Positions 7,606-63,178 of a DNA stretch of 64,000 nucleotides are shown here, piece after piece; positions within the stretch are counted from its first letter, which is position 1, and each line of letters opens with the position of its first letter. The notes under the pieces are model-generated. The model did not search any database. It was given only the letters and a program-made list of their open reading frames with translations, and had not been told where the DNA came from. The DNA lies in assembly GCA_016208495.1 (NCBI GenBank), contig JACQXX010000043.1, forward strand, positions 1 to 64,000, written 5' to 3'. A program made the position numbers and the translations under genes. Source of the stretch: Acidobacteriota bacterium (GTDB lineage Bacteria; Acidobacteriota; Blastocatellia; Chloracidobacteriales; Chloracidobacteriaceae).

Positions 7606-8586
7606 ATGCCGCCGATTACCGTCTCAAACGCGCTGTTACAGGAAGCCCACCAATATAAGCGCGAGCTTCTCGAACGAATGTTTGGTACAACGCCGCTTTT
7701 TCTCAGCCTGGCGCCAACGGTTTCTTCGCAAGCTGCCGCAATCCTGAGACCAGGCAGTAATATTTCTGGATTCGGCTACGGTGCCAAGGAAACGCTCGGT
7801 GCGGGAACTGAGGAACTCGCCGTCCGGGTTTATGTTCGTTCGAAGCTGCCCAATTCCCTGCTGAGTGCCGGGGATAAAGTTCCATCCCAGATTAATGGAA
7901 TGCCAACCGACGTCATTGCCGTCGGAGATGTGGTCGCCACGGCTCGCCCGGTCAAATGTGGTGTTTCAGTCGGTCATTTTCAAATCACGGCTGGAACACT
8001 TGGCTGTCTGGTCAAAAAAACCGGACTTTCGACTGGAGACCATTATATCCTCTCCAATAACCATGTTCTGGCTGATTCAAATGCGGCTAGCATTGGCGAC
8101 GACATCCTGGAACCTGGACCGGCAGATGGAGGAACCAGTCGGATTGCTGAATTGACCGACTTTGAAGCGATGGATTTTACAGGGAACGCCAATACAATGG
8201 ATGCCGCCATTGCCAAAGTTGACAACCTGGGAGATGTATTTCCGGAAATCGAAACCATCGGGCGGATCTCCAATCCTCCGATGCCTGCGGCGCTATATCA
8301 ATCCGTCCGCAAGCATGGCCGAACGACCCGGCATACAATCGGAGTTATCATGGATTTATCGGCTGATATTTGGGTAAGATATGGCGGGAACCGGGCCTGG
8401 TTTGAAGATCAAATTTCCATTATTGGCGCCGGCGGCAATTTCAGTGCTGGAGGGGATTCAGGATCACTGATTGTTGACGGAGTGACCAAACGTCCCGTAG
8501 CGCTCCTGTTTGCCGGAGGCGGCAATACAACCTTTGGAAATCCGATTGAACCAGTGTTATCCCGATTTCAAGTGGAAATTTTGTAA
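7606..8586 (+). CDS. Trypsin-fold serine protease with N-terminal proregion
   Basis: A 326-residue protein with a chymotrypsin/trypsin-type triad: His153 in SNNHVLAD, Asp199 in TMDAAIAK, Ser285 in AGGDSGSLIV. The order and spacing fit a two-barrel serine protease of the kind found in plant NAL1-like and bacterial relatives. Residues about 45-110 form a separate N-terminal domain (GFGYG..., VRVYVRSKL..., VIAVGDV) that is not part of the protease fold and probably is a proregion. No signal peptide is evident, so it may be cytoplasmic or exported by an unusual route. GAGGAGA precedes the ATG by 8 bases. The following gene, 17 bp downstream, encodes a free-standing version of the N-terminal domain. 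Confidence 0.75.
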   Translation: MPPITVSNALLQEAHQYKRELLERMFGTTPLFLSLAPTVSSQAAAILRPGSNISGFGYGAKETLGAGTEELAVRVYVRSKLPNSLLSAGDKVPSQINGMPTDVIAVGDVVATARPVKCGVSVGHFQITAGTLGCLVKKTGLSTGDHYILSNNHVLADSNAASIGDDILEPGPADGGTSRIAELTDFEAMDFTGNANTMDAAIAKVDNLGDVFPEIETIGRISNPPMPAALYQSVRKHGRTTRHTIGVIMDLSADIWVRYGGNRAWFEDQISIIGAGGNFSAGGDSGSLIVDGVTKRPVALLFAGGGNTTFGNPIEPVLSRFQVEIL

Positions 8587-8603
8587 GCAGGAGGTAGCTC
8601 CAC

Positions 8604-8828
8604 ATGATAATTACCGAACCGGACAAGCAGGCGCTTATGGCGGCCAAAGCGGAGCTGCGACGACAATTCAAAAACGTACCGGGAGTCCAGGGGTTTGGAA
8701 TCGGCGAACACAGCGTCCGAGTCTACATCCAGGACACCAGTCTCCGGGCTCACATCCCGGAACAGATCAACAACATTGAAGTCGAATGCATCGTGGAAGG
8801 CGACATCCGCGCCCTGGCTCATTCCTAA
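8604..8828 (+). CDS. Small protein resembling the protease proregion; possible inhibitor
   Basis: A 74-residue protein. Its middle part (VQGFGIGEHSVRVYIQD... IPEQINNIEVECIVEGDI) parallels residues ~50-110 of the upstream protease (ISGFGYG... AVRVYVRSKL... VPSQINGMPTDVIAVGDV) in order and spacing. AGGAGG lies 7-12 bases before the ATG, giving strong predicted translation, and the gene follows the protease by 17 bp. Stand-alone proregions often inhibit or help fold their protease; that role here is inference. It has no signal peptide or membrane segment. A transcription terminator follows. Confidence 0.7.
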   Translation: MIITEPDKQALMAAKAELRRQFKNVPGVQGFGIGEHSVRVYIQDTSLRAHIPEQINNIEVECIVEGDIRALAHS

Positions 8829-9120: not shown

Positions 9121-11988
9121 ATGTCTAATTTTCTTGTGGAATTCATTGAACTTACTGCACGCCACCTTCCAGAGATGAAGCTCATCGCATCGCTGATGGC
9201 TTCCACCTGTGCGATGGGTTTTTTTGTCCTTTGTAAAAGCACCGAAAATGATAGAGAAGGTCAGGGAGTTGATTGGACCTTCTACTTTTTGGGAGGTTTT
9301 ATTGCCTTTGCGGTCAGCTATTTCCTCCAATGGGTTTTCCAAAAATCATCAAAGGAAGTTTTAGATGTCATCTCGATTTCCGGGTCTGCCATAAACAATG
9401 TTTTCTTTTTTGCCGCCGCCGCCACGCTGTATTTAAAGCGGCTATCTCACCGTGGATGGGTCACGATTATCACTTTAATGGCTATCCCAGCTTTATTTTC
9501 GATTGCGTTGAATTGGTATGGAAAGGGTGCTGAGTCTTTTAATAGATCGTTGGATTCAATCCCATCAGTATTTTGTCTTATGTATTTTGGGAGAGCCCTA
9601 AGCGCCAATATTGACTATCAAAAAGGAAACGCTCATTTAGAATATTTTTGGAAAGTGGCTGCATATGCTGTTTCAATACTTTATTCGCTCACTTCAATCT
9701 GTTATGTAATAGTTCCAATATCTTCCTTTGCTGATCAAGCAAATAGTGTTTTGCTTGTATCAGGCATTCGTATAGAAGATATTTCTAATGGGCTTGATTC
9801 AATTATAGTCTTACTTCTAATAATACCTTTAAGATTCAGCTATTTTGTCATTGCAATTGTTGTAATGGCGAGAGCAAGAATAGTTGGGCTACTTCATTCA
9901 ACATTTTTGATGTTGGAGAGACTTGCTGAAGCACAAAGCGCTGAGGAATTATTATATATTCCACAGACAATTCAGGAGCGATTACAGGTTGATACAGTCG
10001 ACTTTTCTATCCGAATCCCTGTATCTCATTCTCCTAAAATGCTCATCTTTAAGTATCCTGGTCAGTATCCAGACAATATCGACATCATTGACCTACCAGA
10101 TCAAAAGACAATCGTTGGACAGGTGTTAACAACAGTCAAAACAGTCTGGCTTTCAAATTTAAGAAAAAGTACCGGATCTATCTTCTCAAAATTCATTTTT
10201 ACTGATGACCCAGATAAGTATAAACAGCTTGGTGTTAGTGATTGGGAAATAGAAAGTGAATCATTCGTTCTAGTTCCAATTGTTTTCCAAAAGAGTGTTG
10301 TTGGATATATTCAAGCAACGACAAAAAACCCTCGAAAGATAACGGCTTTTGCTCGTAGCTATTTACGAAGACTCGCAACGCTATTTTCTCCGTCTGTTCA
10401 AGCCTTTCGCGAGCATGCCGCTACTGATCAATTTGGAATTGAATTTGCAAAATGGCAAGTGAGCCAGGAAAAAGCAACCATACAAAGCAGTGAACGAGGG
10501 ATACAGGACGATATAAATCAACTCGCTGCGATGATTCAAAATATTTTGTCTCCGCTCAAAACTGAATTATTGATTGATATTGGTTTTACAAAGTTCCCCT
10601 CAGAGCAACCTGATTCTCACAATGAATATAATTCTCTCCATAAAACACAAAAACTATATTCGGGTTTGAGAGTGCGAGGAACAGAACACCACCCAGAACT
10701 TACCATTGGAAACTTGATATTAATTATACCTCAGCACGATGATGGAACTTCTGCAGATAATCATCTCGCTTTAGGCACTCATTATTTACACCGGCGAGCC
10801 TTTGCAGCACTCACCTCAGAATACATCCTTGAAATTTATCAAACTCATTTTAATATTGCAATAAATGGACTTAGTATTAAACTCAATAGTTCAAATACGT
10901 TTGAAGATTGGGAAGCTCAAATTGAACAAACAGTACTTCGCTTGGGCATTCAAATAACGTTTGCCAGAAATCCGGAAACTGAGGAAATAATCGGAGGTAA
11001 GAATGAACCTGAACTGAGACAATTTCTAGAATCTCAACCGATTTACCCAGCTTTTAGCGTAGAAATAGAAGAGGTTTCAAATTCTCCTTTATCAGGTCAA
11101 AAAGTCATAAGCCTCTCACTCCCTAAATCAAAAACCTCTATCTGGTTTGGTATCAGTCGTAAAGATTTTGGTCATGAGATAATCCCCCCCTCTCCGTGGA
11201 GAGTCTTCCTTGAACGTTTGGGTGAAATTGCGGATATTAGCCTCGCTGGAATCATTACTCAGCAGAAACTTCACGAGGCAGCCAAAGTTGAAGGGTTAGC
11301 CGTTGCAGCAGTAACAATTGACACTCTGTTTCACCAAATTGTGAATATTGTTCGGAATGTATCACTTTCCCTTCCATTGCTGAGGGAGGCATTAGAAGAT
11401 CATACACTCACAACAACTGACGAAGAAATTGCAGAGTTGATCCGAAAATTACCTGAACAAACAAGCCATTTAGAACAACTTGCAAAAAAATTAAGAGGCT
11501 TCACCCAGTATGAAGGTCAAAAACCTTGTCTTTTATCTGAAGCAGCCATACATGCCCAAACTCTTCTCGATGGAAACTTAACGCTTCGAAAAATACAGCT
11601 CCAAATCAAGATTCCAAATGATCTCAAAATTGATTTTCCACTCAATGTCGCTTCAATGGCAATTTCAAATTTGGTGATGAATGCCAGTGATGCAATTAGT
11701 ACTATGAGTGTTCGACGCGATGGGATTATTCACATTAATATTGAAAAACTTGGTGATTGGATTCACTGTCATATAATTGATAACGGCCCTGGTATCCCTG
11801 AAGATCTAAAGGATAGGATCTTCGATCTAGGTTTTTCGACCAAGAGGGAAGGGAGAGGCTGGGGACTGTATCTTGTGAAAAGAGCGATGAGAGAAAATGG
11901 AGGCAAAGTTGAATTGACTGAATCCCGGCCAGGATTTACCAAATTCTCCCTCATATTTCCGAAACTCAAAGAAGGAACAAACCAATGA
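9121..11988 (+). CDS. Large membrane sensor histidine kinase
   Basis: A 955-residue kinase, first gene of a three-gene operon. About seven hydrophobic helices span residues ~15-255, followed by a GAF-like region (~265-440) and a second GAF-like or unknown region (~450-735). The phosphoacceptor is probably His738 in LFHQIVNIVRN, a non-classical H box. The ATPase domain has an N box (NLVMNASDAIS), G1 (DNGPGIP), F box (DLGFSTK) and G2 (GRGWGLYLVK). The gene is clearly AT-richer than its neighbours, which suggests acquisition by transfer. The ATG at 9121 lacks a clear Shine-Dalgarno. The stop codon overlaps the start of the receiver gene (ATGA), indicating translational coupling. Confidence 0.85.
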   Translation: MSNFLVEFIELTARHLPEMKLIASLMASTCAMGFFVLCKSTENDREGQGVDWTFYFLGGFIAFAVSYFLQWVFQKSSKEVLDVISISGSAINNVFFFAAAATLYLKRLSHRGWVTIITLMAIPALFSIALNWYGKGAESFNRSLDSIPSVFCLMYFGRALSANIDYQKGNAHLEYFWKVAAYAVSILYSLTSICYVIVPISSFADQANSVLLVSGIRIEDISNGLDSIIVLLLIIPLRFSYFVIAIVVMARARIVGLLHSTFLMLERLAEAQSAEELLYIPQTIQERLQVDTVDFSIRIPVSHSPKMLIFKYPGQYPDNIDIIDLPDQKTIVGQVLTTVKTVWLSNLRKSTGSIFSKFIFTDDPDKYKQLGVSDWEIESESFVLVPIVFQKSVVGYIQATTKNPRKITAFARSYLRRLATLFSPSVQAFREHAATDQFGIEFAKWQVSQEKATIQSSERGIQDDINQLAAMIQNILSPLKTELLIDIGFTKFPSEQPDSHNEYNSLHKTQKLYSGLRVRGTEHHPELTIGNLILIIPQHDDGTSADNHLALGTHYLHRRAFAALTSEYILEIYQTHFNIAINGLSIKLNSSNTFEDWEAQIEQTVLRLGIQITFARNPETEEIIGGKNEPELRQFLESQPIYPAFSVEIEEVSNSPLSGQKVISLSLPKSKTSIWFGISRKDFGHEIIPPSPWRVFLERLGEIADISLAGIITQQKLHEAAKVEGLAVAAVTIDTLFHQIVNIVRNVSLSLPLLREALEDHTLTTTDEEIAELIRKLPEQTSHLEQLAKKLRGFTQYEGQKPCLLSEAAIHAQTLLDGNLTLRKIQLQIKIPNDLKIDFPLNVASMAISNLVMNASDAISTMSVRRDGIIHINIEKLGDWIHCHIIDNGPGIPEDLKDRIFDLGFSTKREGRGWGLYLVKRAMRENGGKVELTESRPGFTKFSLIFPKLKEGTNQ

Positions 11989-13682
11989 CACACTTGATCA
12001 ACACCCCATCTTTATCTCTTTCCCAAAATAGAATTCCCGGAAAAATCCTGGTCGTCGAGGATGAATTTGCTCAACGGTTAGCATACACAAAAGCTTTGCA
12101 AAAATGCGGCTTCCAGGTGGTTACCCCAAAAAATATCAAAGAAGTTCGAAAACAGGCCCAGGAACTTGGTGATGAGTTAGCTGTAGCCTTACTTGACATG
12201 AGGCTGATTGAGCCAGATTACGAAGACCCAAACGACCCAGGATTAACAGGTGCTGATCTTGGGTTAGAAATTCGCAAAGGACGAAAAAGGGCAGGAAAAC
12301 TATCATCTCAACAATTTGTGATTTGCTCAGCCTGGCCGAACATTGAGTACTACAAGAGTGCGGTCCAACTGGGCGTTGCAGCATATCTCTTAAAGGATGA
12401 ACTGATTGGGATTGCTGGACTTGCTCGACTCGTAAGCCATATTCGGGCTCTGTATTTACGCTGGGCAATTGAAACTGATTGCCTTGGTAGTTCACAACTC
12501 CTAAAAGAAATTGCGTTTACCTCTCGAAACCAGGAAGAGAGTATTGTTAGGTTTTGTCAGGAAATAATCGCCCCTCGACTCGAAGAAAGCCTGGGAGCAC
12601 CGTTTGTGATTTTGTTAACCGACAACAAAGGCACCAAATGTTGTGCAGGAAGCTTAGATATTCCACAAGGGTATTCTCGGGAATTAGATGGTATTCAATT
12701 GATGACCTTTGTGGACTTTAAAGGGGCGGACCCATTTATTCTGAATGCACAGGAATCCTTTTGGCGGGAACGCCTCAGTCCAGAGTTATCACTCACGTTA
12801 GATGGAGCTGCTTTTATCCCGTTCTCAATCCGAGAACTGAGATTAACCCTGGGTATTCTTAAGAACAATTCAACGGAAAATCAATTTACAGAAGATGTTA
12901 AGGAATTAGGAAAAACCCTTGTCCAGTTTTTCAATCCAACACTGATTGAACTGATAATCAACCTTCTTTCTGAATTCTACGAGCGCTCAGGAGAGTTAAA
13001 AGGAGAACTACAAGGACTGGCTAAATTGTGTTCGATGGTTGGACAAGAACAGCTTAACCTCTTATCTGATTTGAACCCCGAGGCTCCTCAAGGCATATTA
13101 GATGGACTTCAAATCTGGGCACGGGATCTCTTGAGTATAGGAACTTCATTGATGTCCCTTAGTACAGACAACCTTGACCCGGACTATTTGGAAGAAATTC
13201 AAGTCGCGGAATTTATCACTGCACTCCTGGAAGGTCATTTGCCCATGTTTGATTGCGAAATCCATGGGGACTGTACTGTAATTGCAACTCGTGAGGACCT
13301 TTACACTATTGTCTCCAGAATGCTGCAATGGTTTGAACGACAAGCGGAAATTGGTAAAACATCCACCAAAATGGCCATCTATTGTTCAGAAACAAAAGAA
13401 CGAGCCCATCTAATTTTTGAAGACCAAAGCTGGCGACTCCCCAAACCTGCACGAAACCGTTTATTTGCACCATTTACTTATATCCGGCCATTTCATGGAA
13501 AACCGGACAGCAAAGAAAAGGAAGAAAACACTGGTCGGTATCTATCTTTGTATCTGGCGGGTAAGTTGGTTGAAATACGCTATAAAGGCAGGATTGAAGA
13601 TCGAACAGATGAATTGGCTGGTGAAGAAGAAGCTGAATTGGGCCATCGCTTTGTCCTTACCTTTCCAAAAAATAATGAGTAA
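11985..13682 (+). CDS. Receiver-domain protein with degenerate histidine-kinase-like C-terminus
   Basis: A 565-residue protein. Residues ~18-150 are a response-regulator receiver: acidic pair in VVEDE, phosphoacceptor Asp71 in LLDMRL, Ser in FVICSAWP, and Lys in YLLKDEL; a loop of about 12 residues (EPDYEDPNDPG) is inserted after the Asp. The middle (~170-380) may be a GAF-like region. The last ~150 residues follow the outline of an HATPase domain but lack intact N, G1 and G2 boxes; only the end (LYLAGKLVEIRYKGRIE ... GHRFVLTFPK) is recognisable. There is no DNA-binding domain, so output is probably protein-protein. It is coupled to the kinase (4-base overlap), and the CHAT protease gene follows 22 bp later. 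Confidence 0.8.
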   Translation: MTHLINTPSLSLSQNRIPGKILVVEDEFAQRLAYTKALQKCGFQVVTPKNIKEVRKQAQELGDELAVALLDMRLIEPDYEDPNDPGLTGADLGLEIRKGRKRAGKLSSQQFVICSAWPNIEYYKSAVQLGVAAYLLKDELIGIAGLARLVSHIRALYLRWAIETDCLGSSQLLKEIAFTSRNQEESIVRFCQEIIAPRLEESLGAPFVILLTDNKGTKCCAGSLDIPQGYSRELDGIQLMTFVDFKGADPFILNAQESFWRERLSPELSLTLDGAAFIPFSIRELRLTLGILKNNSTENQFTEDVKELGKTLVQFFNPTLIELIINLLSEFYERSGELKGELQGLAKLCSMVGQEQLNLLSDLNPEAPQGILDGLQIWARDLLSIGTSLMSLSTDNLDPDYLEEIQVAEFITALLEGHLPMFDCEIHGDCTVIATREDLYTIVSRMLQWFERQAEIGKTSTKMAIYCSETKERAHLIFEDQSWRLPKPARNRLFAPFTYIRPFHGKPDSKEKEENTGRYLSLYLAGKLVEIRYKGRIEDRTDELAGEEEAELGHRFVLTFPKNNE

Positions 13683-13704
13683 TTTGAAGTGATGGAGGAA
13701 ACAT

Positions 13705-15270
13705 ATGCCAGTTAGCATTTTTGTCCTTAGTGAAGGTTCCCCGAGACCACTTGCTTATTGGATTGAAAATGACCCTCAAGGGCATGAACCCAGTTTTCAA
13801 CAAAAAAAGTGGAATGACCTTGTCCTGGATTTACCAACCCATTACACCAATGAGCCATCCCAAAATAAACGGTATCATGTTTTTCTCTGCCTCTATGGAC
13901 CTCACATTTCACAAACATTTGAACTGGATTATTACCAGGAATTGATACAACAGGCCCAAAATTTCTCCTGGGGGGCCAGAGTTACCTTTGTCATTAGCCA
14001 GGAAGTGAGTCGCAAATTTGACCTCACGTACATTGACGCACTTCACGTCTGGTTCCGTAAAATTTTTCCAGTTCAGGAAGAGAATCACAAGCCAAACATT
14101 TATGCTGATGACTTAATTGAGTTACCAGAAGCGTATTTTGATCGGATTACTGCCGAAGCTGATAGATTTGCAAATGAACTGCACAAGCACTCCCTACGCT
14201 CTCTTGCACGAGCAAGTCAAGTGAAAGAAATTATCTATAAGGATTCAAAACTATGGATTCCAAAAATCTCAGAATTGAGAAGCTTTTTTCCTGAAGAAGT
14301 CAGAAACATGGGGGATGGGTTTAAAAAAGGTGAAGCTCAAGAAATTGCAATCATCCATGTTGATGACCAAAGTAAAATAAAGCAGATTGCGCCAGGCAGG
14401 GCAAAATTTGAAACAGTTATCCTGTGTAATGACAAATCATCTGGTTCAAAGCTGGAACCTGCTTTTGAAGAATGGGTAAAAGGAAAAAGACTTATTAAGG
14501 CTACAGGGATTTTTGAAACAGTATTCATTTGCCTGCACATTAAACAAAAAACTCCTCCTCCATTAAGACGGATCGGGAAAATCGAAGTTATCCCCCCACG
14601 TCGGTCACTCTTTCCTCCAAACTCGAAACAAACTGAGCCCCATCTTTTGGTTACGAGTTCTTTTAACAAGAATGTAGATCGGCTGCCATATCTGTTTGGC
14701 GCCTCTGAGCACATTGCACGGATAAGAAGAAAACTGCCTTTTGGGTATCATTTTCATGTTCACCCATCTTTGAATGGAGAAACTTTGGCCAGTTTTGTGA
14801 GTGGCCATCTGTTTCGGGAAAAAGAGTTAACGGCCTGGGTTTACATCGGACATGGTTTTGGTGGGAACCTTCAAACTTCCGATACTGTTTGGAAACCTCT
14901 CCCTGACGGTAAAATCACGGCAGAAGCGGTTCGAGAAAAACCTCAATTTTGGCTTGATCAGTTTCGAGGCTATGAAAAGGGCTTACCGCTGGTGCTCTTT
15001 TGTGCCTGTGAGTCAGAGAAAATTGCACGCCAATTTGCACAAGCTGGGGTTGGTGTGGCAATCGGCTTCAAAAAGAAGGTTTTGCTTGAGCAATGCTGGG
15101 CTATATCAGAAGAAGTAATCCCAGCCGCTATCAAGACGCATGGTGACCGGATGGCAATAGTTAATGCATTTCACAGAGCTTGCTTGAGATTGCCAAAACC
15201 AAAAATCATTGAGAACGGCCAGGAAACATACCATGACCCTGAACCGGTTGCTTTTTTACATCGGACCTAA
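13705..15270 (+). CDS. CHAT-domain caspase-like protease, two-component associated
   Basis: A 521-residue protein, third gene of the kinase/receiver operon, with GGAGGA 7 bases before its ATG. The C-terminal ~200 residues carry the CHAT pattern of caspase-like peptidases: His383 in WVYIGHGFGG, and Cys435 in LVLFCACESEKIA, followed by AGVGVAIGFKKKV and a helix that ends in an AIVNAFHRACLRL segment. The N-terminal ~310 residues match nothing I recognise; they contain two alpha/beta-looking parts and no membrane helix or TPR motif. CHAT proteases act as regulated executioner peptidases in several bacterial defence systems; here control would be by phosphorelay. Coupling of CHAT to a dedicated kinase and receiver is unusual. 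Confidence 0.78.
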   Translation: MPVSIFVLSEGSPRPLAYWIENDPQGHEPSFQQKKWNDLVLDLPTHYTNEPSQNKRYHVFLCLYGPHISQTFELDYYQELIQQAQNFSWGARVTFVISQEVSRKFDLTYIDALHVWFRKIFPVQEENHKPNIYADDLIELPEAYFDRITAEADRFANELHKHSLRSLARASQVKEIIYKDSKLWIPKISELRSFFPEEVRNMGDGFKKGEAQEIAIIHVDDQSKIKQIAPGRAKFETVILCNDKSSGSKLEPAFEEWVKGKRLIKATGIFETVFICLHIKQKTPPPLRRIGKIEVIPPRRSLFPPNSKQTEPHLLVTSSFNKNVDRLPYLFGASEHIARIRRKLPFGYHFHVHPSLNGETLASFVSGHLFREKELTAWVYIGHGFGGNLQTSDTVWKPLPDGKITAEAVREKPQFWLDQFRGYEKGLPLVLFCACESEKIARQFAQAGVGVAIGFKKKVLLEQCWAISEEVIPAAIKTHGDRMAIVNAFHRACLRLPKPKIIENGQETYHDPEPVAFLHRT

Positions 15271-17198: not shown

Positions 17199-17275
17199 AG
17201 GGTTCGGGGTTCGGGGTTCGGGGTTCGGGGTTCGGGGTTCGGGGTTCGGGGTTCGGGGTTCGGGGTTCGGGGTTT
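17199..17275 (+). repeat. GGGTTCG heptamer array
   Basis: About eleven near-perfect GGGTTCG units between the permease and ATPase genes of the exporter. It occupies the leader of the ATPase gene. Confidence 0.9.
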
Positions 17276-27067: not shown

Positions 27068-27182
27068 TTCCAGGTTCGGGAAAAGGACAAAAAGGATGAA
27101 AGGGACGAAAAGGACATAAATTCGAAAACCCCGAACCCCGAACCCCGAACCCCGAACCCCGAACCCCGAACCCCGAACCCTA
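27068..27182. repeat. Composite repeat: GGACATAAA-type nonamers plus GGGTTCG heptamers
   Basis: CAGGTTCGGG, then GGACAAAAAGG/GGACATAAA-type nonamers, then ATTCGAAAACCCC and eight CCCCGAA units up to the 3' end of the sigma-54 regulator gene. Related composites are at 28550-28774, 32709-32971 and 63032-63178. Confidence 0.8.
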
Positions 27183-28549: not shown

Positions 28550-28774
28550 GGGGGTTCGGGGTTCAGGGTTCAGGGTTCAGGGTTCAGGGTTCAGGGTTCA
28601 GGCAAAACAGAAAAGGACATAAAGGACAAAAAGGACGAAAAGGACATAAATTCGAAAACCCGGAACCCTGACAAGGTGACAAGATGACAGGGTGACAGGG
28701 TGACAAGGTGATTTTTTTCATCCCTCATCCCTTCCGAAAACCCTGAACCCCGAACCCTGAACCCTGAACCCTAT
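28550..28774. repeat. Composite repeat with three unit types between kinase and regulator
   Basis: GGGTTCA heptamers (28550-28602), GGACATAAAGG-type nonamers (28613-28650), GTGACAGG heptamers (28672-28712), then inverted CCCTGAA heptamers (28738-28773) that reach the stop codon of the kinase gene. Confidence 0.85.
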
Positions 28775-32687: not shown

Positions 32688-32708
32688 AGGAAAATACCTT
32701 TAGGTGAC

Positions 32709-32971
32709 AGGGTTCGGGGTTCAGGGTTCAGGGTTCAGGGTTCAGGGTTCAGGGTTCAGGGTTCAGGGTTCAGGGTTCAGGGTTCAGGGTTCAGGGTTCA
32801 GGGTTCAGGGTTCAGGGTTCAGGGTTCAGGGTTCAGGGTCTTCGAATTTTTCAGGGTTCAGGGTTCAGGGTTCAGGGTTCAGGGTCTTCGAATTTATGTC
32901 CTTTTCGTCCTTTATGTCCTTTATGTCCTTTTCCGTTGTTCTCAACCCCTGAACCCTGAACCCTGAACCCG
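32709..32971. repeat. Long GGGTTCA heptamer array with inverted partner
   Basis: About 24 GGGTTCA units in two blocks (32709-32838 and 32852-32885), then TCTTCGAATTTATGTCC and nonamers TTTATGTCC, then three inverted CCCTGAA units ending at the stop codon region of the next gene on the minus strand. Open frames across this block encode only repetitive GFRVQGS peptides and are not genes. Confidence 0.92.
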
Positions 32972-46299: not shown

Positions 46300-47358
46300 T
46301 TATTTCTTCTTTTTTGGCGATTGTTTTTCCGGGGAGGATTCGTTGAGCTGCCACTTTTCGTCCCGGAGAGGCTTGATTCGCCGTTCCCAGGCGTCCAGGA
46401 CGTAACGGTGGTAATCATCGAGCGAAAGTGGCAGCCGGTTTTCCCGGTGATCCTCGATGAGGCTTTCCAGCTCAGGGACAAAGTAGGAAAAACTCTTGAT
46501 CGGGATGCGGGAGGTGTTTCCCCGGAGTTTGCGCTCAACCGTCAAGATCATCGCGATGTCGATCAACCTCGGATCTGTCCCGTTGAACCGCCTCCCCACG
46601 CGATCATCGCGCGGCGACCAGGGTTGTATAGCAAATCTCGCATGCGCGCGGATGATATTATCATCAATCATCAAAATATCATCATGGGGGGGTGCAGGGG
46701 GGGAGTTATACACGGGGTTCGAACGCTGTATAGCAGCTTGTTTTAACCGCTGTATAGCAGCCGACTCAATAAACACTGTGAATGTTTCACCGGATTGCTG
46801 GCATTCTGATTTTATAAGTTCAATTAGGTCAATATTTAGTCGGATTGCAACCAGTTTTGTCTTCTTGCCTTTGAGAGGGTTTTGAACTTCTGTATAGCTT
46901 TGGGTTTGAACGTCTGCTATACGAGGGTTTGAACCCTTGTATAGCGAGCTATACAGCGAGCTATACAGTTCTGAACTTGTATAGCTAGGGGTTTGACCTT
47001 CTGTATAGCCCTCACTTTGAATGCTGTGCTGTTCTTTATTTTCAATAGTTTGGGAGGCTAAATAGGGTTTTGTATAGCTAGGGGTTTGAACCTCTGTATA
47101 GCTAGGGGTTTGAACCCCCGTATAACCAGGGTTTGAAATGTCTGTATGACGTGTGTTTTGAGGCGGTGAAGGCTCTGATCCCCTGGCCTCAGGCATGATG
47201 GAAGGGGCTGGTGTCAAAGGCTCAGATTCGGCTTTTTCTTGATTTCGCAGCAGAAAATCATGAGGCATCCCAATCGGATTGATTTTTAACCCAAGCTTTT
47301 TCGCCGCCGGTTTGCGCAGGACATCTTCATTTGAATTTTTTGATTTAGGTTTTGTCAT
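46300..47358 (-). CDS. Ribbon-helix-helix-type protein with internal YT repeats, ParA partner
   Basis: A 352-residue protein encoded 7 bp downstream of a ParA gene. The N-terminal third contains repeats of eight residues around PSYTEVQT (~70-160), encoded by 24-bp DNA repeats. At ~165-205, TKLVAIRLNIDLIELIKSEC, then QQSGETFTVFIES, resembles a ribbon-helix-helix DNA-binding fold. The C-terminal ~110 residues (GRRFNGTDPRLIDIAMILTV, etc.) are unknown. By position it should be the centromere-binding partner of the ParA, as in type Ib partition systems; the DNA repeats inside its own gene could be the centromere. A replication-initiator role is an alternative. Confidence 0.6.
   Translation of the reverse strand: MTKPKSKNSNEDVLRKPAAKKLGLKINPIGMPHDFLLRNQEKAESEPLTPAPSIMPEARGSEPSPPQNTRHTDISNPGYTGVQTPSYTEVQTPSYTKPYLASQTIENKEQHSIQSEGYTEGQTPSYTSSELYSSLYSSLYKGSNPRIADVQTQSYTEVQNPLKGKKTKLVAIRLNIDLIELIKSECQQSGETFTVFIESAAIQRLKQAAIQRSNPVYNSPPAPPHDDILMIDDNIIRAHARFAIQPWSPRDDRVGRRFNGTDPRLIDIAMILTVERKLRGNTSRIPIKSFSYFVPELESLIEDHRENRLPLSLDDYHRYVLDAWERRIKPLRDEKWQLNESSPEKQSPKKKK
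46715..47150 (-). repeat. Iteron-like array inside the ribbon-helix-helix gene
   Basis: The octamer TGTATAGC occurs ten times exactly (starts 46727, 46751, 46891, 46938, 46978, 47002, 47071, 47095 on the plus strand; 46948 and 46960 inverted), plus variants at 46916, 47120 and 47143. Neighbours are often 24 bp apart within a larger unit TATAGCTAGGGGTTTGAACC. The inverted cluster at 46938-46967 forms palindromes. Confidence 0.85.
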
Positions 47359-47365
47359 GGCTCAC

Positions 47366-48181
47366 TTACCTCACCACCGAAATTTTTTGGCGAGTCATAT
47401 TCAGTCGGTCCAGAATCTCATCCGTTAAGGCCCAAAACAAATCTGCTGCCCGATGATCCTCGCTGTAGATAACGACGGGTAAATGTTGAGATGGTGCCTC
47501 GGCAATCTTGGCGTAGTCGTGAATATTGGTGTCAAAAACGTGTTTGACCAGCGGGAGTACATCCTCGATTGCCGCCCTGGACTCAGCCGATAAATTCCGC
47601 GTCGGTTTGTATAAATTGACGACCACCCCAAGGGTTTGTAATTCAGCATTCACATTGCTCCGGACCTGGTCAATGGTATGAGCCAGATCAGCCAGGCCCT
47701 GCAATCCCATAGCATCTGCCGCACAGGGAATCACCACAAAGTGGGCGGCATACAGAGCGGCAGACAGCAATTTGCCAAGCTGAGGAGGGCAATCAATCAA
47801 CACCAAATCATAACTGGAGGCATGCTCATAAAGCTGTTTCCGGAGGCGATGCATTAAATATTCAGGTTGCTGTTCAAAACGGGCCAGCCGGATATCACAG
47901 GGAATCAGATCGAGGTTTTTAATCGGTGACTCGACAATCGTATCCGCAATCGAAAGCGGTTCGCGCCGTTGGCCCTGTTGAATTTCAGGTTCAATCAGTA
48001 CGTGGGCCAGGGTGCCTTCAAACACATCCGTATTGACCCAGCTTTGGGTAAGATTTCCCTGTGGATCACAATCAATTGCCAGAACCTGATACCCACGTAA
48101 CGCAAAGCACGCTGATAACTCACGTGTAATAGTCGTTTTGCCAACCCCACCTTTCTGGTTGGCAACAGCGAGAATATGCAT
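47366..48181 (-). CDS. ParA-type partition ATPase (copy 1)
   Basis: A 271-residue ParA/Soj-type ATPase without the N-terminal helix-turn-helix extension. Deviant Walker A KGGVGKTT (signature Lys present), Walker A' IDCDPQGNLT, Walker B LVLIDCPPQ. It drives segregation of DNA through a partner that binds centromere sites, here probably the ribbon-helix-helix protein encoded 7 bp downstream. It belongs to the same group as the second ParA at 51350-52195, but the two are clearly diverged, so this is not a recent duplication. Confidence 0.9.
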   Translation of the reverse strand: MHILAVANQKGGVGKTTITRELSACFALRGYQVLAIDCDPQGNLTQSWVNTDVFEGTLAHVLIEPEIQQGQRREPLSIADTIVESPIKNLDLIPCDIRLARFEQQPEYLMHRLRKQLYEHASSYDLVLIDCPPQLGKLLSAALYAAHFVVIPCAADAMGLQGLADLAHTIDQVRSNVNAELQTLGVVVNLYKPTRNLSAESRAAIEDVLPLVKHVFDTNIHDYAKIAEAPSQHLPVVIYSEDHRAADLFWALTDEILDRLNMTRQKISVVR

Positions 48182-48542
48182 GACGAACCCCTTTCCAAAT
48201 CATTGAGAGTAAAACCAAATGGAACCGTTGAGTCCGCTAATAATAGGGTTGAACGGCTGATTTGCAAAGTGGAGTGAAAACCAAACAGATTTCGGTTTGG
48301 AAAATCCTGGCGGACAAAACCGAGGGCATCAGGTATCGGCGGCATTCAGACACTTTGTTTTCCAATAACCAAACTTCCAAATGGGAAAATGGGTGAATAA
48401 ACCGCAGAAAACAAAAAAGTGACTTCAATTTTGGCCAGAACGACCAGGTTTGGGAAAGAAAATTCCGATCAATGAAAATAAATTGGCCTGACTGGGATTT
48501 CAGGCCAACATCGGGGAGCACATAAACCGTAACCTCGAAATA
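48182..48542. other. Noncoding region upstream of the first ParA gene
   Basis: No gene. It should contain the promoter of the parA/ribbon-helix-helix pair. Imperfect inverted GGTTTGG/CCAAAC motifs occur at 48232-48410, but nothing regular enough to call parS. Confidence 0.4.
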
Positions 48543-48603
48543 TTCACGAAGGAACGCGAGCGGCCTCATCTAACTTTGGGGTTTTCCTTCGTGAATTTTT
48601 TTT
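48543..48603. terminator. Terminator-like hairpin after the TerD-domain gene
   Basis: TTCACGAAGGAA (48543-48554) pairs with TTCCTTCGTGAA (48584-48595); eight T follow on the plus strand, and the stop codon of the minus-strand TerD gene lies at the base of the T run. Probably bidirectional. Confidence 0.65.
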
Positions 48604-50269
48604 AAGGTTGTTTCCACCCGTTACCTCCTGGCGCTGGTGTTTCCTCGGAATCACTGGCTGGAACTGTGGGACTGGCGCTGGATGATTTTGATGAACCAGA
48701 GGCTGAATCAACCTTTCGGTCTAATTTTTCAAGAAATTCAATCACTTTTGGATAGCCACCGTACTCGGCTGTCCGATCCCCTTTTTTCCGTTTGATGTTC
48801 AGTGGTGGGTCTGAACCGGCAATTTCGTCTTCGATAGTGATCAACTTGTTTTTCAAATCAATCACGGTGACTGTCCAAATGTGAACTTTGGCATCAACTT
48901 TCCCGCCGTTGCCTTCCAGGTCATACTGGCCGATTACCTTCTCATCTTTTTTGACCAAAACCACGGTTCCGATTTCATCTTTGCTTTTCGCCTGCCAGTC
49001 AGCTTTGACCGAATAGTTCAGCGAATCACCAATTCCCAATTCCTTATCCACAACATAGATCTTCCCGGTTGTGTACCCTCGCCCGGAGGCGGAGTCCAGA
49101 CCTGTGAGGGCCGCCAGCTCTTTGGCATAGGCTTTGAGCTCGGTTTCCTGACGTTCGCGGGCAACTTGTTCAGCCGTGGGTTTATTAAAATTAGACACCA
49201 GCAAACCAATCCCAATCAATCCGCCAAACAAAACCACGACCAGCAAGGCGCCAATGGCCAGGATTTTGCCAAGTTTTGACCCTTGCTGGCGCGGTTGATT
49301 GATGGGTGGACCGTGAGGGGTGTAGGGATTGGGGTTGGGTGGTGGCGCACCCCAGGATTGGTTCTGGGGTGGAGGAGAATGGGGCACCTGTCCATATGGT
49401 GAATTGACCACGGGTGGTATACCAGCCGCCACGGTTGGAATCCCGGATCCAGCAGGTGGTTGACCGCCGGGGTTGTATGGTGGTGGTGGCGCCATCGGTG
49501 CCGCCACGGTTGGTGGCATTGGTGCTTGAGGGGCGCGAGGTGCGGCGGGCGGGGGGGGCATCACAGGTGGCAAGTTACTCTGTCCAAATGGGGTCGTGGC
49601 CTGGAGCGGGAGGTTTGGTGAAGTGTCAGGCCGGGCACTACTTATCGGCATGGTTTGATAGGCGGCTGGGGGCCGTGACGCCGGAGCCGGTTGAACCAGT
49701 GTCGGAATTTCAGGCGCTTGCCCTGGGCTGGGGGAACCACTCGCCGGCTGGTTTCCACCAAACTTCCGCAGGAGCGCACTTAATCCTTCACCAAATCCCT
49801 GACCGACCGCCGCAAATCGCCAATCATCTTTCAGATAAATTTCACCGATGATAATTGATTTTTCAGCCGAAAAATCGGCGCCACTCAATGGAAATTGGAT
49901 GGCTGGACCAGTGCTGGCAATAATTTGCAAGGCACCATAGGCAAGCTGGCTCATGACTGGAGCGCCATTGATGGTCGCCGTGAATACCAGCTTTTGCGAT
50001 TGTTTGGGTAAACTGCCGAGGTTGACCAGAAATCGGGCGGCGGGGCTCCCTGGACCGTCAAGCAACCGAACTGATCCGCAGGGGGACTGCATTTGGCGTG
50101 AATAAATTAAATACCGATCATCAATGATCCGTTGGGAGGCATCAACCACAAAACAACAATAATCAATTGGTGTTGGGCTGGAAAAACCAACCTGCAATAC
50201 AACTTCAAACGATAAACCACTGACGAGTTCAGATAATCGAGCCTTTTGTCCGCGAATAAAATTTTGCAT
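48602..50269 (-). CDS. TerD-domain membrane protein
   Basis: A 555-residue protein. Residues ~1-180 are a TerD/CABP domain (LSFEVVLQVGF, DYCCFVVDASQRIIDDRYLI, SGADFSAEKSIIIGEIYLKD, WRFAAVGQGF), a calcium-binding fold linked to tellurite/stress resistance and to membrane-associated signalling. A Pro-rich linker of ~140 residues follows, then one membrane helix (~340-362, LAIGALLVVVLFGGLIGIG) and an extracytoplasmic beta-type domain. It lies between the two partition gene pairs, all on the minus strand. A TerD protein in this place is unusual; a link to replicon maintenance or stress sensing is inference. Confidence 0.8.
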   Translation of the reverse strand: MQNFIRGQKARLSELVSGLSFEVVLQVGFSSPTPIDYCCFVVDASQRIIDDRYLIYSRQMQSPCGSVRLLDGPGSPAARFLVNLGSLPKQSQKLVFTATINGAPVMSQLAYGALQIIASTGPAIQFPLSGADFSAEKSIIIGEIYLKDDWRFAAVGQGFGEGLSALLRKFGGNQPASGSPSPGQAPEIPTLVQPAPASRPPAAYQTMPISSARPDTSPNLPLQATTPFGQSNLPPVMPPPPAAPRAPQAPMPPTVAAPMAPPPPYNPGGQPPAGSGIPTVAAGIPPVVNSPYGQVPHSPPPQNQSWGAPPPNPNPYTPHGPPINQPRQQGSKLGKILAIGALLVVVLFGGLIGIGLLVSNFNKPTAEQVARERQETELKAYAKELAALTGLDSASGRGYTTGKIYVVDKELGIGDSLNYSVKADWQAKSKDEIGTVVLVKKDEKVIGQYDLEGNGGKVDAKVHIWTVTVIDLKNKLITIEDEIAGSDPPLNIKRKKGDRTAEYGGYPKVIEFLEKLDRKVDSASGSSKSSSASPTVPASDSEETPAPGGNGWKQP

Positions 50270-50454
50270 ATCGTTTCCTTCCCGAATTGAGCGAATTGAA
50301 ATCCAGTAATCTCAGTCTGCCGGAAAAGGTTCCTGGTGACCCAGCACGGATCGAATTTTAAACAAGGAAATCACAGCATACACAGAATACACTGAAAATG
50401 AATCAAGTCGGTTGCGAAAAGGGTGATTTCCTCAGCAGAAGTTCGGAAGAAAAT

Positions 50455-51357
50455 TCAGGTTAAAACTGTCTGTTCCGATTCAGAGGCCAGGCGTTCTCGA
50501 AGTTGATCGGCAGCCAGTTGTAAACAGTGCCGCACGTCTTCATCCGACAAAACCGCCCGATGGGCATTGGATCGGACCTCAACCGTGCAGGAAAACTCCC
50601 GTTCCGGGAGGTATACCTTAAAGCGTTGAGCCGCGACGGATGAGGCTTGAGTTTTTAGCGGTTCGGATTGTGCCTTTGATCCCTGATCCTTAATCCGCAA
50701 AAGCCATCGTTTGGCCGCTGGAACCTGCTGGTTGGAAGCCAGTCGGGAGAGTTGAAGCATTCCATTGAGCGTCGCTTCCGGGTTTTGCCGGCACAGCGCC
50801 AGGACTGCTTCACTCAGTTCAGCAATCCGAAGCCAGTTGGCCAGGGTGGTGCGTTTTAAGCCAACCACCCCTGCCGCATCTTTTGTGGTTGGCAGATTTT
50901 TTGAAAGATCGGCCAAGGCCAGGGCTTTATCCACGACGTGCAGGTCCTCGCGTTGGATATTTTCAATCAGCGCCAGTAATTTCAGCTCGGGTTCATTCAC
51001 GGTTCGAACCATGAGCGGCACATGTTTGAGCCCAGCCTGGCGAGAAGCTGCCCACCGACGATGACCGGCAATCAAGGTATAACTCCCATCTTCATTTGGG
51101 GTTCCAACCAGAGGTTGTAACAAGCCGTGTGCCTGGATACTGGAACTGAGTTCATCAAGCCGGTCTGCTGACATTTCGCGTCGAGGTTGAAAGGGATTTG
51201 GGCGGATTTGATCCAGATCAACCCAAATGACCTGTGGATTTTCAAGGATCTGCTGGGGTGGTTCGACGGGCATTGAGCCTGGTGGTGAGTCCTGGCTCAT
51301 TTGGGAAAGTTGGGCCAGTCGTTCAGCCGAAACGCTCCAGCGCAATTTTTTAGCCAT
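50455..51357 (-). CDS. ParB-family partition protein
   Basis: About 300 residues from the ATG at 51357 (MAKKLRWSVS), preferred because GAGGTGG lies 4-10 bases upstream; it overlaps the ParA gene by 8 bp. The ParB N-terminal CTPase domain is visible (VDLDQIRPNPFQPRREMS, LLQPLVGTPN, LIAGHRRWAA, ENIQREDLHVVDKALAL) followed by the helix-turn-helix (TKDAAGVVGLKRTTLANWLR). It should bind parS sites and spread on DNA, working with ParA copy 2. I found no obvious TGTTTCACGTGAAACA-type parS nearby. Confidence 0.92.
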   Translation of the reverse strand: MAKKLRWSVSAERLAQLSQMSQDSPPGSMPVEPPQQILENPQVIWVDLDQIRPNPFQPRREMSADRLDELSSSIQAHGLLQPLVGTPNEDGSYTLIAGHRRWAASRQAGLKHVPLMVRTVNEPELKLLALIENIQREDLHVVDKALALADLSKNLPTTKDAAGVVGLKRTTLANWLRIAELSEAVLALCRQNPEATLNGMLQLSRLASNQQVPAAKRWLLRIKDQGSKAQSEPLKTQASSVAAQRFKVYLPEREFSCTVEVRSNAHRAVLSDEDVRHCLQLAADQLRERLASESEQTVLT

Positions 51358-52195
51358 TGACCACCTCACTCAACGGACTGGGCACTTTGATTTGGTCAAA
51401 GAGCCTATCCGCCACAGCACTCACATCCTGGTTGGCGGCACATCTGGCATCATAGGCTTTGAGCGGCATTCCTTGCGTGCCGGCTTCGGCCACGCTGACG
51501 TAATCGCGAATGGCCGGAAACAACGGGTATCCAAACGAAGCACAAATCCGGTCGCGAAGTTCTTCCAGATGATGACGGTGCAAAACCAGTCGCGGGTTAA
51601 ATATCGTGGGGACAACTCCCAAAACTTCAATCGTGGGCAGCCGCATATTGGTTCGTCGTTGTTGAACCTGCAAAATTTCGCGATGGACCTCGGCAAACGC
51701 AACCACAGCTTTTCCTTCAGGTTGAACCGGGATCAAAAGCGCATCCGCCGCCAGCAGCACCTGATGGGTGAGTTCAGCAATTTTGGGAGGGCAATCAATC
51801 AAAATCAGATCATATTTAGCTTTGAGGCGGTCAAAAACACCCAGCAGGCGGGCCGGGTCGTGTTGTTGCGCCAGTACCCATTCATCATCAATCAAGGTAT
51901 GGTTGGCCAACCCGAGGTGGACTCCAAATTCTGACTGAATTCGGATCGGATCCCCTTTTGGTCCCCCACGCATGCAGATTGATGACCAGAAGAGATCCGT
52001 CACGGGCCGTTCGGCGGGTGTTTCGCCAAAGAAAACCCCCAGCGTTCCCTGTGGATCAGCATCCACCAGCAATACTCGTGACCCACGCCCGGCAAGTTCA
52101 AATCCCAGATCCCGAGTCAGGGTGGTTTTTCCGACACCTCCGGCTTGATTAAACACCGCTACTGTTTTGACACAATTGTTTTGTCCCTTTGTCAT
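51350..52195 (-). CDS. ParA-type partition ATPase (copy 2, with ParB)
   Basis: A 281-residue ParA with deviant Walker A QAGGVGKTTL, Walker A' VDADPQGTLGV and Walker B LILIDCPPK. The Lys of the first KGG is replaced by QAGG, but the signature Lys position cannot be fully judged by eye. The gene overlaps ParB by 8 bp and heads a run with ParB and the TerD-domain protein. Together with ParA copy 1 this makes two partition ATPases within 5 kb. Confidence 0.9.
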   Translation of the reverse strand: MTKGQNNCVKTVAVFNQAGGVGKTTLTRDLGFELAGRGSRVLLVDADPQGTLGVFFGETPAERPVTDLFWSSICMRGGPKGDPIRIQSEFGVHLGLANHTLIDDEWVLAQQHDPARLLGVFDRLKAKYDLILIDCPPKIAELTHQVLLAADALLIPVQPEGKAVVAFAEVHREILQVQQRRTNMRLPTIEVLGVVPTIFNPRLVLHRHHLEELRDRICASFGYPLFPAIRDYVSVAEAGTQGMPLKAYDARCAANQDVSAVADRLFDQIKVPSPLSEVVNG

Positions 52196-54522: not shown

Positions 54523-55938
54523 ATGAACGTTGAACCAGAAATTGAAGATGGCCTCCGTCCGTTTAAGACGCCGGTTTTTTTGCGACCAGCTCTCTTTATT
54601 CCCCTTTGTTTTGTATTGGTTGCCGGAATTGTCGGGTTTATCTGGCTCCGGAGCGGCAACAAAAGTGCAACTCATACCGATGACCATGCCGAATCAGAGC
54701 ATCACGAAGCGGAAGTCATACTGTCACCTGAGGCGCTCCAGGCTGCCGGAATCACAATTGAGACTGTGGATTCAAAATCAACTGCCGGGTTGATTCAGGT
54801 CACCGGATCGGTTGAGCCCAACCAACTGCAAACCCAGCAAGTTTCATCCCTTGTTTCCGGACGTCTGGATGAAGTTCTGGTGATACTCGGCAGTCGGGTC
54901 AAAACCGGCGATGTGCTCGCCAGGCTTTCGAGCCCATTGATTGCCGAAATGCACGGTAAATTGCACGAGGCTGAAACCCGGCTGGCCATTGCTCAGCGAA
55001 CCTACGAACGTGTCCAACAAGTGGAAAATCGAGTTGGCGTGCTCCAGGCACGGGCCCGGCTCGATGAAGCGTCAATCAACCTGGATCGAACCCGCAAACT
55101 GGCTGATTCTGGAATTGTCGCTGGTCGAGATTTGACGGCGGCTGAAGCGGCTTACAAAACCGCAAAAGCCGAGTTCGATTTTCAAAGCAACATCAATCTC
55201 AATCGCGAAGTCCAGGAAGCCAAAGCAGCGGTTGAAACGGCTGAAGTGGATGTCGCCCATATGCGCGACAGCCTTAAAGCCCTTGGCGCGCCAGTGGTTG
55301 GCGAACATGGTGACCACCACGAAGATACCGCGCAGGTTACGATTCATTCTCCGCTGTCGGGCATCGTCACCGAACGGCTGGTCAACGCCGGGGTTGGCGT
55401 TGATCCGGGAAAGCCGATGTTTACGATTTCGAATCTGGCTTCTGTCTGGGTCATGGCCAGTGTGCCAGTGTCACAAATTGGAAAACTCAAACCCAACGAC
55501 CCGGCGACGATTCGGACTCCCAATCCTGAAGATCAGCCGCTGACAGGTGCCATCAACTATCTTGATCCGCTCATCAATGAAAATACCCGCACGGCGTGGG
55601 TTCGAATCGAGGTCAACAACCCGAAAGAGACGTTACGGGTCGGAATGTTTGTCACCATTGAATTTAGAGTCAAACCTGACGCCAGTGCTTCCCCGCACAA
55701 TGAAGTTGTCATACCAGCACAAGCGGTCCAACAGGTCGGTAACCAGGCAATAGTGTTTCTCCCGAAAGCCGATGAAGCTGGCGCCTTTGAAGTGCGTGAA
55801 GTCGAAATCAGCGAAGAATCAAACGGGTTGGTTCGCCTTCGAACTGGACTCCAGCACGGCGAAAAAATTGTCACCCAGGGCAGTTTCACGCTGAAAACCC
55901 AGTTGCTCAAAGGTGAAATGGGTGAGCACGATCACTGA
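54523..55938 (+). CDS. czcB: CzcB-type RND periplasmic adaptor
   Basis: A 471-residue adaptor; AGGAGAAGG lies just before the ATG at 54523, so the longer GTG-start frame is rejected. One membrane anchor (~22-42), then a His-rich stretch (THTDDHAESEHHEAE, ~48-62), a barrel-sandwich domain (VSSLVSGRLDEVLVILGSRV, ... IHSPLSGIVTERLVNAGVGV), a helical hairpin (~130-245) with HGDHHED inside, and a C-terminal beta-barrel/MPD. It links the RND pump to an outer-membrane channel and probably loads metal. The czcA gene follows after 213 bp of repeats. Confidence 0.88.
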   Translation: MNVEPEIEDGLRPFKTPVFLRPALFIPLCFVLVAGIVGFIWLRSGNKSATHTDDHAESEHHEAEVILSPEALQAAGITIETVDSKSTAGLIQVTGSVEPNQLQTQQVSSLVSGRLDEVLVILGSRVKTGDVLARLSSPLIAEMHGKLHEAETRLAIAQRTYERVQQVENRVGVLQARARLDEASINLDRTRKLADSGIVAGRDLTAAEAAYKTAKAEFDFQSNINLNREVQEAKAAVETAEVDVAHMRDSLKALGAPVVGEHGDHHEDTAQVTIHSPLSGIVTERLVNAGVGVDPGKPMFTISNLASVWVMASVPVSQIGKLKPNDPATIRTPNPEDQPLTGAINYLDPLINENTRTAWVRIEVNNPKETLRVGMFVTIEFRVKPDASASPHNEVVIPAQAVQQVGNQAIVFLPKADEAGAFEVREVEISEESNGLVRLRTGLQHGEKIVTQGSFTLKTQLLKGEMGEHDH

Positions 55939-56145
55939 GGGTTCAGGGTTCAGGGTTCAGGGTTTAAGGCTTCTGAAAGGATGAAGCATGAAAAAAGTAT
56001 CATATTACCTTGTCAGGGTTTTCGCTGCGTAGCAGTGGTTGAGTTGAGGCAGGTCGTTTACGGCCTGTTGCAAAATAAAAAAGCCCAAAAATTCCAAACC
56101 CCGAATCCCGAACCCTGAACCCTGAACCCCGAACCCCGAACCCTA
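55938..56145. repeat. Inverted GGGTTCA array pair between czcB and czcA
   Basis: GGGTTCA units start at the last base of the czcB stop codon (55938-55964); inverted CCC(C/T)GAA units fill 56097-56144, ending 7 bp before the czcA ATG. In between lies the segment at 56035-56064 (TGGTTGAGTTGAGGCAGG...), also present at 6169-6198. Confidence 0.88.
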
Positions 56146-63032: not shown

Positions 63033-63178
63033 GGTTCCGGGTTCCGGGTTCCGGGTTCGAGGACGAAAGGGACATAAAGGACATAAAGGACATAAAGGAC
63101 GAAAAAAGAGCCCAACCAATCTTCGAAAACCCGGAACCCCGAACCCCGAACCCCGAACCCCAAACCCCAAACCCCGAA
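63032..63178. repeat. Composite repeat: inverted GGGTTCC/G arrays around GGACATAAA nonamers
   Basis: GGGTTCC units begin at the last base of the glycosyltransferase stop codon (63032-63060), GGACATAAA units follow (63061-63105), then TTCGAAAA and CCCCGAA units to 63178, touching the radical SAM coding sequence. Confidence 0.85.

Follow-up and report, generated by a model that had tools for sequence, protein, structure and literature searches.

A three-gene operon of the Blastocatellia joins a two-component signalling pair to a CHAT-like protease, and we consider the chances about even that it forms a phosphorelay-gated protease, in which a membrane histidine kinase acts through a receiver–pseudokinase adaptor to switch the protease post-translationally. 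The operon lies at positions 9121–15270 of a 64,000-nucleotide stretch from an Acidobacteriota bacterium (contig JACQXX010000043.1, positions 1–64,000), which is called the window below and whose source genome comprises 8.4 Mb at 99% completeness. All three open reading frames (ORFs) were found on the plus strand where a preliminary description, made by a model from the letters and translated ORFs, had placed them. Their tight coupling was also verified: the kinase and receiver genes overlap by 4 bp (ATGA), and a gap of 22 bp separates the receiver and protease genes.

The protease was searched against 396 genomes of the phylum, which yielded two full relatives, and an alignment was then used against the 162 genomes of the class Blastocatellia, including the window's own, which yielded two more. 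The kinase–receiver–protease trio thus occurs in the same order and orientation in 5 of the 162 class genomes (the window and four of the 161 others), and because it recurs in this way, the operon is more than a chance arrangement. An alignment search with the receiver protein recovered exactly the same five genomes (E ≤ 1e-14), with the genes adjacent each time. The preliminary description had held that its proposal would fall if the three genes occurred together nowhere else; four further genomes carry them. Homologues share 23–38% identity with the window proteins (23–28% for the protease copies), so that positions conserved among them are informative. A genome scan across all phyla, which is insensitive to distant relatives, confirmed only one genome, which was already known.

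In the relatives, the operon is extended by two genes that the preliminary description had missed: a sigma-54 activator (4/4) and a calcineurin-like phosphoesterase (3/4). Three relatives (G251, G484 and G299, the last a Pyrinomonadaceae metagenome-assembled genome of the same class as the window) have the order phosphoesterase, kinase, receiver protein, protease and sigma-54 activator, and the fourth (G408) has the activator without the phosphoesterase. The activator follows directly downstream, at a distance of 1–9 bp, in four of the five operons, and combines an N-terminal domain of some 125 residues with an AAA+ core and a Fis-type helix–turn–helix (HTH). Profile comparison of this N-terminus with the receiver protein, which would have marked it as a receiver, was negative, and its comparison with the protease revealed no shared domain. 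Neither extra gene adjoins the three-gene operon of the window. The activator N-domain had no match in the window's genome, in a search that included no positive control; a clear relative of the phosphoesterase is present there on another contig only. Since kinase, receiver protein and protease are common to all five operons while the window lacks both extra genes, these three form the core. The phosphoesterase relative in the window's genome (locus L030, contig C174, 1942–6126, minus strand) is flanked by a class 3 lipase gene on one side and, on the other, by a gene whose trypsin-like domain is fused to an AAA_35/NACHT-like ATPase, an arrangement of conflict type.

In the receiver protein, an acidic pair (E25 and D26), Asp71 and Lys137 are invariant in all five copies, which upholds Asp71 as assigned before, and the protein's profile matches solved response regulators with an E-value of 2e-13. 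Its predicted model (mean predicted local distance difference test score, pLDDT, of 77) comprises a REC domain, a GAF-like domain, a DHp-like helical pair and an HATPase-like domain. The C-terminal halves of receiver protein and kinase align in a profile comparison, with a modest probability of 49%, and all fold matches of the kinase-like part are histidine kinases. The top VIA match is DivL of Caulobacter (PDB 4q20; Z 17.8, 210 aligned residues, root-mean-square deviation (rmsd) 4.6), which ties with several other kinases, and the top Foldseek match of the receiver protein is the hybrid response regulator LvrB (PDB 8vc9). In an alignment by eye with the HQxxN motif of the kinase, the apparent phosphoacceptor position is taken by Gly353, within a conserved VGQ/IGQ motif; in all five proteins, DxGxG has become D-x-S-x-R and the G2 motif is lost. 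The preliminary description had seen a decayed ATPase domain here. The HATPase-like fold without DxGxG agrees with that view, which is now refined to GAF-, DHp- and HATPase-like domains without the phosphoaccepting histidine, and the protein is predicted to combine a receiver and a pseudo-histidine kinase in one chain, a feature overlooked before. An active hybrid regulator resembling LvrB was considered and rejected, the histidine being replaced by Gly353 and DxGxG being absent in all five. Because the histidine-kinase body is catalytically dead, the protein is not expected to act as a signalling kinase; a DNA-binding domain is also lacking, and its sole candidate output is the dead kinase body.

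The sensor kinase of the window is naturally read as functional. Its HATPase_c domain is matched with an E-value of 1e-17, and His738 together with the N-box, G1 and G2 residues, among them D887, G889, G891, G913 and G915, is invariant in the five copies. A hydropathy scan gave seven hydrophobic segments, as expected from the seven helices first described. The assignment to the GAF type holds in part: one homologue exceeds the GAF cut-off, and the window copy stays under it (E 0.014).

The confidently predicted C-terminal domain of the protease (AlphaFold, residues 308–521) most closely resembles SAVED-CHAT (PDB 8tl0; Z 16.5, 185 aligned residues, rmsd 2.9), far above the matches to caspases, legumain, C11 proteases, Craspase and a region of the anti-sigma factor DdvA, all at a Z of about 11. 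His383 and Cys435 are intact and invariant in the five copies, and each follows a core strand of the predicted fold, where the catalytic dyad of the SAVED-CHAT fold is expected. Pfam, PADLOC and NCBIfam profiles do not recognise the protease, the only NCBIfam match (rhodanese-related) being far under its cut-off. Because fold and dyad fit while sequence profiles fail, the protein is best described as CHAT-like by predicted structure and divergent by sequence; the CHAT identity first proposed thus stands on the fold and does not extend to the profiles. The N-terminal half, reported as unrecognised, remains so: no profile matches it, and comparison with seven SAVED domains by hhalign was negative. 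CHAT chemistry as such is common in the class, since ordinary CHAT proteins (PF12770) occur in 73 of 78 genomes, with at least 26 matches in the window's genome, a large expansion. The protease family described here is separate from them in sequence.

The features observed are three coupled genes that are conserved together, catalytic residues that remain intact and the marks of a dead kinase; motifs and gene linkage suggest how they might work together. The membrane kinase would sense a signal and autophosphorylate at His738, and the phosphate would pass to Asp71 of the receiver protein. Phosphorylation of Asp71 would then, most likely, alter a dimeric pseudokinase scaffold. This scaffold would hold the CHAT-like peptidase encoded next to it, probably by the peptidase's N-terminal part, and its change would turn proteolysis on or off. 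The sigma-54 activator and the phosphoesterase of the relatives may be added outputs or regulators, with the window copy representing the core; as that copy keeps the protease while it has neither of them, the protease appears to be the main output. The preliminary description had likewise proposed a phosphorelay with the receiver protein as adaptor. The two-component pair is indeed locked genetically to the CHAT-like peptidase, the receiver-protein and peptidase families sharing one set of five among the 162 genomes, and the adaptor role is probable.

Several points weigh against a phosphorelay-gated CHAT-like protease. The contact between receiver protein and protease is putative, and a transcription activator follows in four of the five genomes, on which the phosphorelay might act instead. 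The sequence of the protease fails to match the CHAT family, with no PF12770 match up to an E-value of 5 for three members and a negative hhalign comparison with 12 canonical CHAT proteins of the class. Furthermore, its N-terminal part is poorly modelled, residues 99–289 lacking a confident model, and the five examples all come from one class.

The first of the alternatives, for which we see a smaller but real chance, is a transcription circuit based on regulated proteolysis. Here, the peptidase would cut a transcription regulator (in the relatives, the sigma-54 activator or its inhibitor) within a stress or developmental response rather than a killing one. The activator directly downstream of four operons argues for it, as do similar sigma-54-like sites upstream of two of them (G299, TGGCATAACAAGTGCT; G484, TGGCATAGCTAATGCT), which have shuffle p-values of 0.003 and 0.04, uncorrected, with six regions tested. 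In addition, the CHAT-like fold also matches the DdvA anti-sigma factor region (Z 11.6), and the CalpL protease of type III CRISPR systems cleaves an anti-sigma factor (PMC11417357). It is weakened by the window, which has kept the protease without an activator and in whose genome the activator N-domain went unmatched, and by the remaining operons, whose upstream sites are no better than chance, with none found before the window kinase. Just downstream of the sigma-54-like sites, two loci (L006 and L026) carry small ORFs of 54 and 60 residues upstream of the phosphoesterase gene, with ribosome-binding-like sites and, by eye, a shared R-S-I-x-I-R-S motif; they are a lead at most, as possible candidates for a small partner or substrate.

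An anti-phage or programmed-death system, as the preliminary description had suggested, seems rather unlikely. The kinase would then sense infection or envelope damage, and the released peptidase would kill or arrest the cell. The fold is closest to that of a CRISPR-associated executioner protease, the distribution is patchy (5/162 genomes) and the GC content low, and calcineurin-like phosphoesterases and caspase-like peptidases recur in predicted conflict systems (PMC7159879). Against this, no defence family was found in the three proteins: PADLOC-DB 2.0.0 gave weak matches only (SduA, E 0.002–0.015; PDC-M60, about 0.001), and the relatives' sigma-54 activator matches its RtcR models over the AAA+/HTH part only. 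Nor did scanning the neighbours reveal a convincing defence gene, ABC and AAA+ cores giving the expected cross-matches. Phage, plasmid and viral collections contained no copies, and the copies combine low mean identity with a stable operon organisation, unlike fast effector exchange. Since four of the five operons include the activator and similar sigma-54-like sites precede two of them, a transcription-linked stress or regulatory response is at least as likely as defence. A caspase-fold executioner gated directly by the phosphorelay through the receiver–pseudokinase adaptor, in the service of programmed death or anti-phage immunity, is likewise doubtful. Finally, a CHAT-like domain serving an ordinary two-component pathway as a non-catalytic scaffold or binding module is improbable: a common fold by itself proves no activity, but His383 and Cys435 are invariant in their dyad positions, each following a core strand, at 23–28% identity.

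The coordinates of the operon and its domains are collected in the table. As reported before, the locus is AT-richer than its surroundings: its guanine-plus-cytosine (GC) content of 0.41 equals the lowest value among all 6.15-kb stretches of the window, which has a mean of 0.49.

Table. Genes, domains and predicted catalytic positions of the operon in window coordinates.
Feature	Position	Strand	Remark
Sensor histidine kinase, 955 residues	9121..11988	+	About 7 membrane segments, weak GAF match, DHp carrying His738, HATPase_c intact
Membrane part of kinase, residues 20–265	9178..9915	+	Seven hydrophobic segments; hydropathy scan
His738 codon, predicted phosphoacceptor	11332..11334	+	HQxxN; invariant in five homologues
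Receiver protein, 565 residues	11985..13682	+	Predicted REC-GAF-pseudo-histidine kinase
REC domain	12039..12404	+	Asp71 codon 12195–12197
GAF-like domain, receiver protein residues 183–315	12531..12929	+	Putative; from predicted secondary structure
Pseudo-kinase part of receiver protein	12933..13673	+	Predicted DHp-like helices (Gly353 replaces phospho-His) and HATPase-like domain without DxGxG
CHAT-like peptidase, 521 residues	13705..15270	+	
Peptidase N-terminal part, residues 1–307	13705..14625	+	Low-confidence model for residues 99–289
Caspase/CHAT-fold domain, peptidase residues 308–521	14626..15267	+	Predicted; best match SAVED-CHAT, Z 16.5
His383 codon	14851..14853	+	GHG motif; invariant in five homologues
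Cys435 codon	15007..15009	+	ACxS motif; invariant in five homologues

Upstream of the operon, the plus-strand stretch 7606–8828 holds the gene of a Trypsin/Nal1-like protein with weak Nal1_C and Trypsin_2 matches and a small ORF, and is probably no part of the system. The trypsin-like gene (7606–8586) was rejected as a member, having ordinary GC content and no match in the four relatives, and not adjoining the other operons. The small ORF that follows it (74 residues, 8604–8828, plus strand) resembles by eye the N-terminal domain of that protein alone. In a test for an empty insertion site, the nearest HlyD/ABC/TetR cluster in a family member was just 29–44% identical, and no insertion boundary was therefore drawn. 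Elsewhere in the window, many intergenic arrays repeat a 7-base unit (GGGTTCA/GGGTTCG and others), some lying close together in opposite orientation, and 8- and 9-base arrays are mixed in; they occur at 17200–17274, 27127–27180, 28552–28602, 32708–32885, 55938–56143 and 63032–63178, among other places, with 65 matches against 0.3 expected. On the minus strand, 46300–52195 looks by eye like a plasmid-like partition cluster, with ParA-like genes at 47366–48181 and 51350–52195, a ParB-like gene at 50455–51369 and a protein with YTEVQTPSYT-type repeats at 46300–47358.

Among CHAT proteases, those studied best respond to a guide RNA or to cyclic nucleotides as their switch. If the phosphorelay-gated reading is correct, bacteria can also govern a caspase-like protease through phosphate transfer, a dead kinase serving as adaptor, and a receiver protein lacking a DNA-binding output gains a role. 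Should the protease prove to be an executioner, a new activation logic would stand next to the nucleotide, RNA-guided and NTPase switches. The novelty lies in the coupling of two-component signalling to a CHAT-like peptidase, both kinds of component being already known, and the system is directly testable because it has five members, whose catalytic residues are defined and some of whose partner genes are optional.

No description of a histidine kinase–receiver–CHAT operon was found in the open literature, which does not prove that none exists. Among known systems, Kaur et al. (2020) described conflict systems whose parts include caspase-like peptidases, calcineurin phosphoesterases and receivers; among the vWA-associated effectors, their account gives no histidine kinases (PMC7159879). 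The MoxR–vWA ternary systems thus share caspase-like peptidases, calcineurin-like phosphoesterases and receivers as parts with the operons described here (PMC7159879). MoxR AAA+ and vWA genes were absent from the ORFs of the five operons, the AAA+ gene of the relatives being the sigma-54 activator with its Fis HTH. CalpL/CalpT/CalpS of type III CRISPR also ties a protease to transcription control, through cleavage of an anti-sigma factor, but its protease is of the Lon type and activated by cyclic nucleotides, and an extracytoplasmic function (ECF) sigma factor takes the place of a sigma-54 activator (PMC11417357).

SAVED-CHAT of type III CRISPR, the best structural match, has a similar total length and also carries its peptidase domain at the C-terminus. 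It differs in sequence (12% identity) and in context, as no CRISPR genes were seen at the locus, where the partners are a kinase and a receiver; a SAVED domain was not detected in the N-terminal part of the protease, in which residues 99–289 are modelled with low confidence. TPR-CHAT/Csx29 of Craspase and the canonical TPR-CHAT proteins (PF12770) share the CHAT fold (Z about 10.9) and the HG and xAC catalytic motifs with the protease, which in contrast has no TPR, matches neither PF12770 nor the canonical profiles, and spaces its His and Cys by 52 residues rather than about 83.

The receiver protein resembles LvrB in its N-terminal REC ahead of a kinase body and DivL in its kinase-like part, and neither of these is known to be encoded alongside a protease. 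DivL is also a pseudokinase, while LvrB keeps the kinase motifs that are lost here. In the defensive two-component system Detocs, a histidine kinase and receiver proteins drive a non-transcriptional effector that is fused to the receiver. The operon would share this principle, with the difference that its effector is a separate CHAT-like protein and its receiver sits on a predicted pseudokinase.
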